A program made the position numbers and the translations under genes. Below, piece after piece: positions 27,119 through 43,138 of a stretch of DNA of 47,208 nucleotides. This stretch comes from Gammaproteobacteria bacterium (GTDB lineage: Bacteria > Pseudomonadota > Gammaproteobacteria > Eutrophobiales > Eutrophobiaceae). The first letter of the stretch is position 1, and each line of letters starts with the position of its first letter. The stretch spans positions 1-47,208 of the forward strand of contig JACORW010000068.1 in the NCBI GenBank assembly GCA_016179185.1. The letters are read 5' to 3'. The notes under the pieces were generated by a model. The model saw nothing but the letters and a program-made list of their open reading frames with translations, made no database searches and was not told the DNA's origin.

Positions 27119-30100
27119 GTGGGAAGCGTGATTAACAGGGGAACCCTGAGACTGGTAGCGTTCATTGCCGGGGTGTTTTTGGCGGACCCGGTGCTGGCTG
27201 CCACCTGCACCAGCAACGTCGCACCCAACGGTAACTGGAGTGCAAGCGGCAGTTGGTCGGCATGCGGGGGAGGCATCCCGCAGAACGGTGACGACGTGGT
27301 CATCGCAGCCAACGACACCATCATCTTGGATGTCACCACAAATGACCTGGATGATTTCACGATTAATGCCAGCGGAATTTTGCGCGGAGACAATACCGGC
27401 AAAATCCTGCAGCTCGGCGGGGGAGGTGGCGAGGACTTTACCAATGACGGCACGCTGGATTTCGGGCCCGGCAATCTGGCGACGGTCAGGCTCAGCGGTG
27501 GTAACTCGCGTTGGGGTGGCGCCGGCACGTGGAATCTGAGTGTCCTGGACATAGTTGCCAGGACACTGACGTTTTCGGCGGGCACCACCGCGACACTGAA
27601 TTTCAGTGGTGACGCCGCACCCATCCTCTTCACCACCGGTATCGTCACGTCCCGGTCCACGATTACCTGGAATTTTGCCGGCAGTGTGGCGCAAACCCTG
27701 CCCACCAGCACCAACGTCAAGTACGGGGCCATCGCCACGAACAATTCCGCCGGGGTGACGCTGGGGGTCGCCCTTTCCGCCACCAGCCTGCTGGACAACC
27801 TGGGTGTGCAGAGCGGCATTTTCAACGATGGCGGCTTTGCCATCGTGGGGAATACGGGCAAGACCTTTTCCGTGTCCAGCGACGCCACGTTCAATCTCAC
27901 CAATGCCGCCGGCATGGTCACCGGATTCAGCACGAAGACCTTCGGCGCCACCAGCACCGTGAATTACGCGCTGAATGGCGATCAGCCGGTGAGCGCGGAG
28001 ACCTACGGCCACCTGACCCTGAGCGGCGGCGGTAACAAGACGCCCGCCGCCGGCACAACCACCATCGCCGGCGACTTCACGCTGGCCGCGGGTGTCACCT
28101 ATGCCGGCACCACGAACAATCCCACCGTGAACCTGGCCGGCAACCTTTCCAACAGCGGTACATTCAATTCCGGCACCGGCACCTTCACCTTCAACGGCAG
28201 CGCGGCCCAGTCCGTGACCGGCGCCACCACGTTCACGAACATGACACTGGACAACGGCAGCGGCCTCACCCTGAACAATGATGTCACTGCGAACACGCTG
28301 CTGACCTTCACCAACGGCACGATCACCACCGGCGCGAACAAGATGATCATTGACACGGCAGGCAGTCACACCGGCAGCAGCAGCGCCCGCTATGTCATCG
28401 GGACCATGGAAAAGGTCGGGCCGGTCGCCACGTTCACGTTCGCCGTCGGCGATGCCAGTAATTACACGCCGGTCCTCACCGCATTCAGCGGCGGGGGCGC
28501 CAGCGGCAGCCTGGCCGTCAACACGACCGCCGGGGAGCACCCGAACATCGGCACCTCCACGCTGGACTCGACCCGGAGCGTGAATCGCTACTGGACGCTC
28601 ACCAGTACCGGCCTCACCGGCACCTACGACGCCACCATCACCTTCATATCGCCGGGGGACGTGGACTCGGCCTCCGATTTTTCCTCTTACACGATCCAGC
28701 GCTTTTCCGGGGGCAGTTGGTTCACGACCACCACCGGCGCACAGAACAATACGGATACTTCCGCCACCGGACTGACCGGATTCGGCGATTTTGCCGTCGC
28801 GGTGCCCCTGTCCGGGGTCAATCATTATCTGATCAGCCATGACGGCAGCATGGTGACCTGCCTGACCGAGGACATCATTTTTACCGCGCACAATGCCGGT
28901 CACATTGCCGTCAACCCGTCCTCCGGCAATGTGTTGTCCGTTTCCACGTCCACCGGGCGGGGCACCTGGACGCTGGCACCATTGGGCGGCACCGGAACCT
29001 TCACCGATGCCACGCCCAATGACGGCAGCGCCACCTACCAGTTCCTGGGCGGCGAACCGGCGGTGACGCTGCGCCTCAGCTACACGAATCCAGCGACGGA
29101 CCCCGAGGCTGTGAATTTCAATGTGTCCGACAACAACGGCAAGACCGAGGCCACCGGCACCGCCGCCGGCGACAGCGACGACGCCGATCTCGGCGTCAGC
29201 AAGACCGGGTTCGTGTTCTACAACAGCACGGACAGCAACACGACGTTTCCGACACAGATCGCCGGCAAGCGATCCGACCAGGGGTTTGGTGCCAAGAACC
29301 TGGCGTTGCGCGCGGTGAAGGTGTCTGACTCCGATCCCAGCGTCTGTTCCACGCTGTTTGCCAATGGCAGCGACGTGATCGTGGAATTGGGCGCCGAGTG
29401 CAGGAATCCGGTTGCCTGCGCCGGCCAGCAGGTCAGCGTGACCAACAACGGCAACACCAGCGCGCTTTCGACCAACGATGATAATGGGGGAGTACTTACT
29501 ACCGGTTTTACGCCGGTAACACTGCGCTTCGCGGCCAGTTCCACCGCGGAACTGCACGTCAGCTATCCCGATGCCGGACAGATGCAGTTGCATGCGCGCT
29601 TTGACCTGGGGGATCCGGTGGGCACTTTCATGACCGGCTCGTCCAATGATTTTGTCGTGCAACCGTTCGGGTTCCTGGTGACCGCCACCGGCAATCCTGC
29701 CGCGGCGGATGAAACCGGCACCGTATACAAGTCGGCGGATGACGATTTCACTTCCACCATCAAGGCCATCGGCTGGCAGTCCGCGGACGATGCCAACAAT
29801 GATGGCATTCCGGACGGGCACGAGGCGGCAGACACCGATCCCACCAACAATGCCGACCTGTCGGACAACGCCGCACTGCCCAATTTCGGCCAGGAATCCG
29901 GCGGTGGCGAGGACGTGGCGCTGACCGCGGCGCTGGAGCAGCCCGCGGGCGGTGCCGATCCCGGATTGAGCGGTGGGACCTCCGTGACGAGTTTCACTGC
30001 CGGCGCAGGAAGCACGGCGACCGCGCGATATGCCGAGGTCGGCATCATCGAAATCAGCACCGTCATTTCCGACGGTGACTATCTGGGTATCGGCGCCGCC

Positions 30101-31093
30101 GCGACGGCGCTTGCGCGCGGCAAGAGTGGCCGCGTCGGCCGCTTCCGGCCCTTCGAATTCACGGTCACCGGGAATACACCGGCGTTCACGCCCGCGTGCA
30201 ACGCGGACACGACGGATTTCACCTACCTGGACCAACCGTTCAATTATGCGACCGCGGCGCAGGTGACCATCACCGCGAAGAGCAAGCTGGGGGCGACGAC
30301 GACGAACTACGACAGCGCCTGGTGGAAGCTCGCCAACTTTTCGGCGACCTACGCCCATGATGGCGGAGCGTTGCCGGGCGGAGTCACGCTGGACAGCGCG
30401 GCCGCGAGTCATGCCGCGGTGGATTGCAGCGGCGGGGTCTGTGACGGCGTGTTCACTTCCACGTTCGCCGGGCCATTCATGTACAGCCGCACGGTCACGC
30501 TGACGGCGCCATTTGCTGCCGCCGTGGACATCACGCTGAGCAGCATCACCGACAGCGACGGCGTGACCTACGCGGGCAATCCGTTCAAATTCGAAAACAT
30601 CGTGTTTACCGGGGGCGCAAACCAGCAGCGTTGGGGCCGGTTGGCGATCTCGGAGTCTGTGGGCGATCCGGCGCTTACAGTGGACGTGCCGGTGACCGCG
30701 GAGTATTACGACGGGGCCGCGTTCGTCCAGAACGCGGACGACGACTGCTCCGCATTCGATCTGGCGAACGATGTCAGTCTCACGAACGAGGCCAGCGGCA
30801 CGCAGGACGGGGACCAGTCCATGACCATTGGTGGCGGCACCACCTCGGTGACGTCCGGAAACGGATTGATGGGCAACGGCTCGGATCTGATGACCTTCAG
30901 CGCCCCGGGTTCCGGAAATACCGGGTTGGTGGACATCGCCGTGGACCTGGATACCGCCACCGGCGCCGATCTGCCGTGGCTTTTTTTCGACTGGGACGGG
31001 GACGGAATCTTCGACACGACTACGTCGGGCCGGGCCTCCTTCGGGATCATCTCCGGGCCCCAGAGCATAATTTACTCGCGCGAACCCTGGTAA
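27119..31093 (+). CDS. mshQ: MSHA biogenesis protein MshQ-like, large exported adhesin-like protein
   Basis: A 1324-residue exported protein. The signal peptide ends near VLAATC. The N-terminal half (about 30-560) is Gly/Thr/Asn-rich with short repeated strands, suggesting a beta-helix or beta-sandwich stalk; motifs such as TGFGDFAVA resemble large secreted proteins of Bacteroidota. From about 567 (NHYLISHDG) to the end it matches the DUF6701 region of MshQ: FTPACN, FTYLDQPF, ITAKSKLGATTTNYD, WWKL, MYSRTVTL, QRWGRLA and the final FGIISGPQSIIYSREPW. A calcium-type motif (DANNDGIPDG) is near residue 895 and another (DWDGDGIFD) near the end. Only GTG 27119 or GTG 27128 can start it. MshQ usually follows mshP; here it stands alone upstream of mshI. 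Confidence 0.85.
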   Translation: MGSVINRGTLRLVAFIAGVFLADPVLAATCTSNVAPNGNWSASGSWSACGGGIPQNGDDVVIAANDTIILDVTTNDLDDFTINASGILRGDNTGKILQLGGGGGEDFTNDGTLDFGPGNLATVRLSGGNSRWGGAGTWNLSVLDIVARTLTFSAGTTATLNFSGDAAPILFTTGIVTSRSTITWNFAGSVAQTLPTSTNVKYGAIATNNSAGVTLGVALSATSLLDNLGVQSGIFNDGGFAIVGNTGKTFSVSSDATFNLTNAAGMVTGFSTKTFGATSTVNYALNGDQPVSAETYGHLTLSGGGNKTPAAGTTTIAGDFTLAAGVTYAGTTNNPTVNLAGNLSNSGTFNSGTGTFTFNGSAAQSVTGATTFTNMTLDNGSGLTLNNDVTANTLLTFTNGTITTGANKMIIDTAGSHTGSSSARYVIGTMEKVGPVATFTFAVGDASNYTPVLTAFSGGGASGSLAVNTTAGEHPNIGTSTLDSTRSVNRYWTLTSTGLTGTYDATITFISPGDVDSASDFSSYTIQRFSGGSWFTTTTGAQNNTDTSATGLTGFGDFAVAVPLSGVNHYLISHDGSMVTCLTEDIIFTAHNAGHIAVNPSSGNVLSVSTSTGRGTWTLAPLGGTGTFTDATPNDGSATYQFLGGEPAVTLRLSYTNPATDPEAVNFNVSDNNGKTEATGTAAGDSDDADLGVSKTGFVFYNSTDSNTTFPTQIAGKRSDQGFGAKNLALRAVKVSDSDPSVCSTLFANGSDVIVELGAECRNPVACAGQQVSVTNNGNTSALSTNDDNGGVLTTGFTPVTLRFAASSTAELHVSYPDAGQMQLHARFDLGDPVGTFMTGSSNDFVVQPFGFLVTATGNPAAADETGTVYKSADDDFTSTIKAIGWQSADDANNDGIPDGHEAADTDPTNNADLSDNAALPNFGQESGGGEDVALTAALEQPAGGADPGLSGGTSVTSFTAGAGSTATARYAEVGIIEISTVISDGDYLGIGAAATALARGKSGRVGRFRPFEFTVTGNTPAFTPACNADTTDFTYLDQPFNYATAAQVTITAKSKLGATTTNYDSAWWKLANFSATYAHDGGALPGGVTLDSAAASHAAVDCSGGVCDGVFTSTFAGPFMYSRTVTLTAPFAAAVDITLSSITDSDGVTYAGNPFKFENIVFTGGANQQRWGRLAISESVGDPALTVDVPVTAEYYDGAAFVQNADDDCSAFDLANDVSLTNEASGTQDGDQSMTIGGGTTSVTSGNGLMGNGSDLMTFSAPGSGNTGLVDIAVDLDTATGADLPWLFFDWDGDGIFDTTTSGRASFGIISGPQSIIYSREPW

Positions 31094-41200: not shown

Positions 41201-41826
41201 TGGCACTGGCGCACCGCTGGACCAGCCGCAACCTGACGCGGCTGGAGCTGGTCTTCGCAATAACCGTAATAGCGCTGCTGATGGGCGCATTTCTTCAGCG
41301 CGGTTTGCGCGTGTTCGCAATCGCGGAAGAACGGTCACTCCAGGCCACCGTGTTGAATCTGAACTCCGCGCTGCGCATTCTCCTTTATGATCTGGTGATC
41401 TCGGGACGAACGGCGGAGGTGGCGCAATGGCAGGGGGCCAATCCGGTGCGCCTGCTGGAAAGCGCAGGTGCCTCCCCGAACCTGGAAACCATGATGGCGT
41501 ACCCGGAGCTGGCGCGGTTTCATGCAGTGGCAGCCGGGCTCGGGGCAAGGTATCAGGGTGAATTCGTTTCTCCTGATGCCGCGCTCGTTGAGGATGGGAA
41601 ATGGTATTTCGATATGGCCGATTCGGTGCTCGTATACCGTGTGCGAAACCATGAGTTTTTCCGCTCCGCACTACCTGGCCCGCCGCAGATCCGCTTTCGC
41701 CTGGAGGTTCGATTTGATGATCTGAACGGGGACGGCCAGTACAATCCGGAACTGGAACCAGCGACGGACGTGACGCTCAGGACTGTGGATGAATACAGGT
41801 GGACTCAGGCAGGCGTGAACTTATGA
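41200..41826 (+). CDS. mshF: MshF-like protein with pilin-type N-terminus
   Basis: The N-terminal segment LTRLELVFAITVIALLMGAFL resembles a type IV pilin helix and keeps Glu at the +5-like place, but the usual Gly-Phe cleavage site is replaced by Asn-Leu, so peptidase processing is doubtful. It matches MshF by position (between mshG and the pilins) and size (208 residues); sequence support is moderate. The C-terminal half contains RLEVRFDDLNGDGQYNPE, a calcium-loop-like motif. TGATG overlap with mshG implies coupling. Confidence 0.7.
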   Translation: MALAHRWTSRNLTRLELVFAITVIALLMGAFLQRGLRVFAIAEERSLQATVLNLNSALRILLYDLVISGRTAEVAQWQGANPVRLLESAGASPNLETMMAYPELARFHAVAAGLGARYQGEFVSPDAALVEDGKWYFDMADSVLVYRVRNHEFFRSALPGPPQIRFRLEVRFDDLNGDGQYNPELEPATDVTLRTVDEYRWTQAGVNL

Positions 41827-42428
41827 ATCCCATCTGGCGCGAGATCCTGTTGATTACGCTCTTCAGTCTCGGCGCGATTTGCCTGGTCATCGGGCTCTTG
41901 CTGTTCGTCGCGCCACAACGGTTTCTGGAGTCCACGGCACGACTCAACCGTTGGATATCCACCGAAGCCGCATTCGAGTCTCTGGACCGGTCGCGGCCTG
42001 CCGACCGCTATTTCTATCGCCTGCACCTGTGGGTGGGTACGGTGCTTGTGCTTGGCAGCCTCTACATTATCTACACATTTTGGGCCTGGTATGACCGGGC
42101 TCTGGTGTTGCCAAAATTGCCGGTGATCTACAACCCCGCGGCCAGCGCCTGGATCTACGACAGCCTGGTAGTTTTTCTGCGGGGGGCAGGTGTGGTCGGA
42201 TTGGTATCGGGCATCGTGGTGCTGGTGCGTCCGAGTCTGTTGAAGTCGGTGGAGGCCTGGGGCAACCGTTGGGTGGCCACCGAGCGCTGGACCCGGCCAT
42301 TGGACCAGCAGAAGGATCTGCCGCCGCAGTGGTTTCCGGGACGGGCGCGCTGGTTCGGACTGGGTATCTCCTTGGGCAGTCTTTATGTGATGTTGCGGTG
42401 CGGGAGCGCGATATGGGGACTGGATTAA
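41823..42428 (+). CDS. Unknown polytopic membrane protein in the msh operon
   Basis: I do not recognise a family. The 201-residue protein has about four membrane helices: LITLFSLGAICLVIGLLLFV, HLWVGTVLVLGSLYIIYTFW, LRGAGVVGLVSGIVVLV and GLGISLGSLYVML. It begins 4 bases inside the MshF-like gene and precedes the pilin promoter, so it is the last gene of the mshI operon. A role in pilus anchoring or membrane environment is only inferred from position. Confidence 0.75.
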   Translation: MNPIWREILLITLFSLGAICLVIGLLLFVAPQRFLESTARLNRWISTEAAFESLDRSRPADRYFYRLHLWVGTVLVLGSLYIIYTFWAWYDRALVLPKLPVIYNPAASAWIYDSLVVFLRGAGVVGLVSGIVVLVRPSLLKSVEAWGNRWVATERWTRPLDQQKDLPPQWFPGRARWFGLGISLGSLYVMLRCGSAIWGLD

Positions 42429-42459: not shown

Positions 42460-42475
42460 TGTGATCTAACTCACA
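42460..42475 (+). promoter_or_regulatory. CRP-type binding site upstream of mshA
   Basis: TGTGA-TCTAAC-TCACA has both perfect half-sites of the E. coli CRP consensus. Its centre (42467.5) lies 61.5 bases before the start predicted from the -10 below, exactly the class I (lac-like) position. Confidence 0.75.
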
Positions 42476-42516
42476 GATTTATCACAAAAATTTACAATGG
42501 ATAGGATTGGCGCCGG

Positions 42517-42522
42517 TATAAT
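42517..42522 (+). promoter_or_regulatory. mshA promoter -10 with inverted repeat
   Basis: TATAAT perfectly matches a sigma-70 -10. TTTACA at 42491-42496 is a loose -35 with 20-base spacing, as CRP-activated promoters tolerate. GCCGGTA (42512-42518) and TACCGGC (42524-42530) form an inverted repeat centred on the -10, which could bind a repressor. Start predicted near 42529, leaving a leader of about 130 bases. Confidence 0.7.
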
Positions 42523-42583
42523 TTACCGGCACGACCGGAGCGTTGGATAACTGGGGATGGCAGGAATGGACCCTTCTCGGTGC

Positions 42584-42601
42584 GGTTCCCGCGGGAACCG
42601 A
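42584..42601 (+). other. Structured mshA leader stem-loop
   Basis: CGGTTCCCGCGGGAACCG is a perfect 18-base palindrome. TCTCGGT upstream and ACCGAGA downstream offer a competing or extended pairing. It does not match a c-di-GMP-I riboswitch. It lies about 60 bases ahead of the pilin start and may affect message stability. Confidence 0.5.
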
Positions 42602-42658
42602 GACTCGAACATCCCTGTACGCGGGCTGCGGCCCGAACCTTGAATGAGGACAGCAATA

Positions 42659-43084
42659 ATGAAACAGCAAAGCGGTTTTACGTTAATTGAACTGGTGGTC
42701 GTGATCGTTGTACTGGGTATCCTGGCTGCCACGGCGCTGCCGCGGTTTGCCGCCGTCTCGGACGATGCCAGGGTCGCCGTGGCAAACGGTGTTGCGGGCG
42801 CTGTGCTGAGCGCGGCAGTCGTGCAGCTCGGTGCAAACAGCGGTGCGGCGCAGACATTTGGCTCGATCATTGGCCAGGTCGATGTGTCCGGTCCGGATCA
42901 AATCGACGTGTCCTTGGACGGTGGCACAACCTTTGAAGATATTACCGGGGCCATCGCGCAGGCCTGCACCGCCGCTGGCGGTGGCGACAACACGTTGACG
43001 GTGCGGGTGCGGGTCGGGACCAGCACGACCAACGCGCAGTTGGGAAACCCGACGACCATTCCCGACGCCATATGTGACCTCTAA
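42659..43084 (+). CDS. mshA: Major MSHA-type pilin MshA
   Basis: Type IV pilin subunit. Short leader MKQQSG, then GFTLIELVVVIVVLGILAAT with the conserved Phe+1 and Glu+5. Two Cys near the end (AQACTAAGG and AICDL) could form the usual disulfide loop. 141 residues. ATG at 42659 has GAGGA eight bases upstream. Its own CRP-type promoter, structured leader and strong terminator downstream suggest it is the most expressed gene of the locus, so major pilin is the best reading. Confidence 0.87.
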   Translation: MKQQSGFTLIELVVVIVVLGILAATALPRFAAVSDDARVAVANGVAGAVLSAAVVQLGANSGAAQTFGSIIGQVDVSGPDQIDVSLDGGTTFEDITGAIAQACTAAGGGDNTLTVRVRVGTSTTNAQLGNPTTIPDAICDL

Positions 43085-43110: not shown

Positions 43111-43138
43111 AGAGGGGGCGAAGCCCCCTCTTTCTTTT
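43111..43138 (+). terminator. Rho-independent terminator after mshA
   Basis: AGAGGGGGC-GAA-GCCCCCTCT with a perfect 9-bp stem and a TTCTTTT tail. It would cap most mshA transcripts and let a fraction read through into the minor-pilin genes. Confidence 0.9.

Follow-up and report, generated by a model that had tools for sequence, protein, structure and literature searches.

The moment at which many environmental bacteria attach to a surface is decided by MSHA-type pili. What is known of the control of these pili comes mainly from Vibrio and concerns c-di-GMP and the MshE motor. Three described systems offer comparisons for the locus reported here. The c-di-GMP riboswitches (GEMM-I and c-di-GMP-II) are structured leaders ahead of surface-attachment genes. 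Leaders bound by CsrA/RsmA present one GGA within a hairpin loop, the form of a CsrA site, and another at the Shine–Dalgarno sequence. The third is the E. coli lac promoter, a class I CRP-dependent promoter.

The locus lies in a window of 47 208 nucleotides, the whole stretch of DNA analysed, which is contig 38 of a genome assembly (MAG; 2.58 Mb in 115 contigs, 86% complete). It encodes a PilM-like protein, MshE, MshG and pilin-like proteins, and was identified as an MSHA-type pilus locus from the MshE ATPase with its MshEN domain, MshG and pilins in msh order. The order mshE–mshG–...–pilin–mshC–mshD–mshO and a homologous MshE are shared with the msh loci (mshA) of Vibrio and Shewanella. In contrast to the window, the twin-hairpin model described below found no match in the loci of Vibrionaceae, Shewanella, Colwellia and Idiomarina, and no homologue of X201, the upstream neighbour of the pilin gene (Table 1), turned up there. 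We take the pilin gene to be the major pilin gene of the MSHA-type pilus; it appears to form its own transcription unit, with its own promoter and its own terminator-like stem. Further upstream of the msh genes, positions 27119–31093 hold a very long open frame of 1324 amino acids, perhaps an MshQ-like protein, overlapped on the opposite strand by one of 1503 amino acids.

The pilin leader shares with the c-di-GMP riboswitches a structured region ahead of a surface-attachment gene. It differs from them in its structure, which is a pair of simple hairpins and not a ligand-binding junction, and in having no Rfam match in the window or its relatives; Rfam 15, applied at gathering and permissive thresholds to the window and 20 relatives' loci, returned matches at chance level only. 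The literature searched yielded no description of such a leader. Overall, our comparisons support control by CRP and a leader that is very probably a conserved structured RNA outside Rfam 15, and leave an operator at the −10 element unsupported. A covarying pilin leader in two large proteobacterial groups, outside Rfam, points to a control layer absent from the literature searched; the element, about 60 nt long and single-copy per genome, is directly testable.

Table 1. Features in and around the pilin leader (positions in the window)
Feature	Position	Strand	Remarks
X201, 201-aa probable membrane protein	41823–42428	+	Directly upstream of the pilin promoter
CRP site TGTGATCTAACTCACA, TGTGA-N6-TCACA	42460–42475	+	Both half-sites perfect; 9/10 in sister species G001
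Candidate promoter A, CTCACA-17-TACAAT	42470–42498	+	TACAAT at 42493–42498; predicted start near 42505
Second TCACA half-site	42482–42486	+	11 bp 3' of the TCACA in the CRP site; G001 has it too
7-bp inverted repeat GCCGGTA-TAATT-TACCGGC	42512–42530		Spans TATAAT; not conserved
Candidate promoter B, −10 TATAAT	42517–42522	+	Predicted start near 42529; no good −35
Weak GGA-loop hairpin CGAC(CGGAGC)GUUG	42532–42545	+	4 pairs only; outside the predicted fold
Twin-hairpin element, full covariance-model match	42578–42638	+	44.9 bits (R1), 44.7 bits (R2); training sequence
Hairpin 1, CGGUUCC-CGCG-GGAACCG	42583–42600	+	18 bases; the palindrome CGGTTCCCGCGGGAACCG
Hairpin 2, CGGGC-UGCG-GCCCG	42622–42635	+	10 nt upstream of the Shine–Dalgarno sequence
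Shine–Dalgarno sequence GAGGA	42646–42650	+	Eight bases ahead of the pilin start
MSHA-type pilin gene	42659–43084	+	141 aa; N-methylation motif; PF07963, 2.6e-9; synteny
Intrinsic-terminator-like stem, then TTCTTTT	43111–43131	+	Directly 3' of the pilin gene

CRP and the pilin promoter region

A preliminary description of this region had proposed three layers of control: a textbook class I CRP promoter with perfect half-sites at lac geometry, a repressor operator over the TATAAT and an 18-base palindrome in the leader. The CRP site does match at all ten positions and is the sole perfect site in the window (0.017 expected). Genome-wide there are seven perfect sites, compared with 0.92 expected from the window's composition and none for a reversed-pattern control. 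In 12 further genomes of the family, synteny from MshE led to the orthologous pilin genes, and sites matching at nine or more positions were found upstream of five of the 13 family pilins (window, G001, G022, G018 and G040), as against none of 371 control stretches of equal length.

The CRP homologue on which the earlier proposal depended is encoded on contig 43 (protein L017). It is a CRP/Vfr-type regulator whose best PDB match is a cyclic AMP receptor protein (E 1.3e-72), with the recognition helix CSREMVGR where that match has CSRETVGR. An OsmC/YhfA-like gene adjoins it, as one adjoins crp in E. coli. The orthologue and the conservation of the site together support the proposed CRP control of the pilin, and we consider it likely that CRP acts at this promoter region. 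That the signal is carbon status was an assumption of the preliminary description; in the MAG we found seven class III cyclase domains and no match to a class I adenylate cyclase.

The geometry can be read in two ways. As in the lac promoter, perfect half-sites are combined with a poor −35, and the distance from the centre of the site (42467.5) to the predicted TATAAT start is 61.5 bp, as had been claimed, and to the first TATAAT base 49.5 bp. Unlike lac, the pilin promoter has a competing −10 at conserved spacing and undergoes a 2 bp shift in the sister species, its start is a predicted one, and other genera of the family place the CRP site differently or lack it, the spacing to promoter and leader varying between genera. 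The counterpart of TATAAT in G001 is TATGAT, 2 bp further from the CRP site. The competing hexamer, TACAAT, which like the second TCACA half-site and hairpin 2 had been missed, belongs to candidate promoter A, the sole pattern match of our promoter scan and the best σ70-like match by the scores used. Its −35 overlaps the right CRP half-site and its spacing to CRP is identical in G001. The −61.5 centring holds for the TATAAT start and fails for TACAAT. Because TACAAT keeps its CRP spacing in G001 while TATGAT is shifted, the class I position is only one reading, and with two −10 candidates CRP could act in either direction: it would activate from −61.5 if TATAAT is used, and would interfere or repress if TACAAT is used.

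Repression, in which the transcript starts near 42505 and CRP occludes the −35, is an alternative that we take seriously and think rather less likely than not. Promoter A's rank in the scan and its constant CRP spacing speak for it, as do predicted starts in several family leaders that cluster 68–77 nt before the hairpin element. A further point in its favour is that deletion of crp raises the mshA transcript in Vibrio mimicus (PMC10854923); that locus is a distant one. Against repression, V. mimicus is without this leader type to judge from other Vibrionaceae loci, TATAAT is a perfect −10, and the score of promoter A is unremarkable, being reached by 31% of shuffles; that of promoter B is not remarkable either. 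The original combination of class I activation with a repressor at the −10 repeat and the palindrome as a further DNA operator seems to us improbable. It has the exact −61.5 geometry on its side, and the 7-bp repeat exists as described; 0.2% of shuffles place an inverted repeat that long with its centre no more than 3 nt from a given point, the point having been picked post hoc. Yet with the position left free, 8.8% of dinucleotide-shuffled versions of the 230-nt intergenic region contain a perfect 7-bp repeat, and the sister species, where the CRP spacing is off by 2 bp, has no equivalent at that place. We identified no cognate repressor and do not accept the repeat as an operator. The palindrome is also poorly accommodated, since its stems covary across 30 leaders and the common loop, UGCG, does not make a DNA palindrome. 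Conservation in relatives, which had been suggested as a check, extends to the CRP site and the leader hairpins and not to the −10 repeat.

CRP sites were also noted at two other places. At L072 (943–990, G000:C104) two identical perfect sites, TGTGATGCAATTCACA, lie 32 bp apart between AMP-ligase-like and transporter-like genes. A Thiobacillus pilin (L101) has a 9/10 site (AGTGATGGACATCACA) 97 bases ahead of its start codon, without the leader element.

Twin hairpins in the leader and their spread

The 18-base palindrome is present as described. It is better regarded as hairpin 1 of a two-hairpin RNA leader than as a separate layer of control, and its perfect symmetry in the window comes only from a loop that reads CGCG in place of the usual UGCG. 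A palindrome of this kind (arm of at least nine, or arm of seven with a loop of four) occurs in 1.7% of shuffles. Both hairpins, with YGCG loops (UGCG or CGCG), are found in 12 of 13 family leaders picked by synteny and not by structure. In an alignment of 14 leaders (A3), both partners vary in 13 of 14 pairs; covariation is 0.640, compared with 0.258 for shuffled alignments and a maximum of 0.229 for slid partners. For 30 leaders (A5) the figures are nine of ten pairs and 0.653, compared with 0.244 and at most 0.198; A5 was fitted to the covariance model and hence leans towards it. All 60 loops in A5 are YGCG, with G always at position 2, an invariance that is partly circular for leaders found by the model, which scores the loop, so that the family set alone is exempt. 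The closing pair of hairpin 2 is C–G throughout A5, and that of hairpin 1 is C–G in 22 leaders, U–A in seven and U–G in one; in several of the U–A-closed hairpins the stem is broken by a 3 × 3 internal loop. The whole leader of the window folds no better than shuffles (z −0.04), and its predicted fold contains both hairpins.

Covarying helices thus occur at a fixed place ahead of one type of gene, as is characteristic of a structured cis-regulatory RNA leader, and on these alignments the twin hairpins very probably represent a conserved RNA structure. On account of the covarying stems and the common UGCG loop, we reject the palindrome as a DNA operator. In one sub-clade (L055, L056, L061, L064, L179 and L054) hairpin 1 is of the form CCAAAGGU-UGCG-ACCAGCGG; instead of a continuous stem it has three base pairs at the top and, beyond a 3 × 3 internal loop, an outer stem.

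Covariance-model searches covered about 790 genomes: 369 of the class (R1), 399 of the order of G418 (R2) and 35 chosen genomes; an order-level search round G238 comprised three genomes only. Named loci reached via MshE added leaders from Gallionellaceae, Nitrosomonadales, Noviherbaspirillum and one Ectothiorhodospiraceae genome. Non-training matches with E < 0.001 numbered four in R1 (G178, G238, G316 and G206), each immediately preceding a pilin start, and five in R2 (G776, G473, G591, G802 and G508), all before pilins; the G316 stretch is the named locus L086 and is independent of the R1 training set, not of L086. Each positive genome among the 35 had one copy, and the new matches in G002, G051 and G044 (E 0.005) precede pilins. 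In total, 11 of 11 non-training matches with E < 0.001 (two of two in the chosen genomes) stand before an MSHA-type pilin. Only G092 (E 0.006) of five weaker R1 matches does so, and G461 (E 0.0014) does in R2; with these two and G044 the count is 14 of 14, against which are set six weak matches (G055, G162, G218, G119 and two in G731) that we ascribe to chance, no pilin start lying directly downstream. L082 has the hairpin pair by inspection and scores only E 1.4. An isolate, Noviherbaspirillum sp. Root189, carries the element. On the MshE tree its presence requires at least five changes, in both the betaproteobacterial and gammaproteobacterial halves, and may reflect an old origin with losses, or transfer.

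We also considered whether the hairpins belong to a DNA repeat dispersed through the genome, or attenuate transcription, rather than forming a pilin-specific leader element. Genomes of high GC content abound in hairpins that are short and GC-rich. Nevertheless, there is a single model match per genome, always at the pilin, on which ground we reject a dispersed repeat; no U-run follows either hairpin, which speaks against an attenuator; and 30 leaders share the position relative to the start codon. We regard this explanation as extremely improbable.

X201, which matched no family above the cut-off, accompanies the element. Every one of the 30 element-bearing loci tested has a homologue. Of the roughly 27 loci scored as element-free, L057, L082 and L090 have one too; L082 really has the pair. 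Joint loss of X201 and the element could result from adjacency alone. A Wenzhouxiangella leader (L085), unscored by the model, carries GAC-TGCG-GTC and CCGAC-CGCG-GTCGG, wider apart and further from the start; X201 was not found there.

Possible roles of the leader

The best explanation of the whole, to which we lean with some confidence, combines the CRP site with a conserved twin-hairpin leader that would act post-transcriptionally on the pilin mRNA. Most likely, the hairpins would be recognized through their YGCG loops by an RNA-binding factor, and they might serve as a 5' stabilizer as well. UGCG belongs to the UNCG loops, in which position 2 is free, and C(UNCG)G loops are exceptionally stable. 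The hairpins might therefore be mRNA stabilizers, UNCG-type caps that need no dedicated factor and protect an abundant pilin mRNA against 5'-end-dependent and endonucleolytic decay; this is possible, and we are inclined to doubt it. The stability of such loops, the closeness of betaproteobacterial hairpin 1 to the predicted 5' end and the terminator-like stem of the window pilin are consistent with it. The details of the loops count against it: the position that is free in UNCG is G in 60 of 60, neither UUCG nor GNRA ever substitutes for YGCG in the synteny-chosen family set, and the seven U–A-closed first hairpins, several with the internal loop, retain YGCG, a choice that stability alone would not be expected to favour there.

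Recognition is favoured over plain stability because loop position 2 is always G and YGCG is kept under U–A closing, an argument to be read with the selection of the model-found leaders for the loop itself. Loop-specific recognition by a factor is a plausible proposal that we advance with reserve. The YGCG loop is self-complementary if G–U pairs are counted, and the two hairpins may be in loop–loop contact. More speculatively, the twin hairpins could be the target of a putative RNA-binding regulator, or pair mutually or with a partner RNA, as a CsrA-independent switch for MSHA-type pilins across the beta- and gammaproteobacteria.

The arrangement of the leader differs between groups. In eight of ten betaproteobacterial leaders the best σ70-like promoter predicts a start 6–11 nt before the element, and the twin hairpins would form most of the leader; three of these eight promoters have scores reached by fewer than 5% of shuffles. 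For the window's family, starts are mostly predicted 68–90 nt before the element, and the extra stretch often holds a GGA-loop hairpin. Of 15 family leaders, 11 have such a hairpin at a comparable place (1.7 expected) and nine have one with a stem of at least six pairs (0.7 expected), within a position range chosen after looking; none of the ten betaproteobacterial leaders has one.

Further points of likeness to CsrA/RsmA-bound leaders are the GAGGA of the Shine–Dalgarno sequence, which supplies a second GGA, and the presence of csrA. CsrA is encoded in the window's genome (G000:C110, E 1.2e-26) and in 14 others of 20 genomes tested; none was found in the two betaproteobacterial genomes tested or in the family genomes G042, G044 and G052. 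The leader departs from the CsrA type in several respects. GGA is absent from the twin YGCG hairpins. Betaproteobacteria retain these hairpins, and CsrA is missing from both of the betaproteobacterial genomes tested. The GGA hairpin of the window, standing where most family relatives have a strong CsrA-type hairpin, is weak. A CsrA-type GGA hairpin would have been added upstream of the twin hairpins in this family. Because the window's GGA hairpin has just four pairs, CsrA control of this pilin is a lead only. The GGA hairpin is preceded by yet another, CTGGA-GNNA-TCCAG, in one sub-clade of the family (L055, L056, L064 and also L179).
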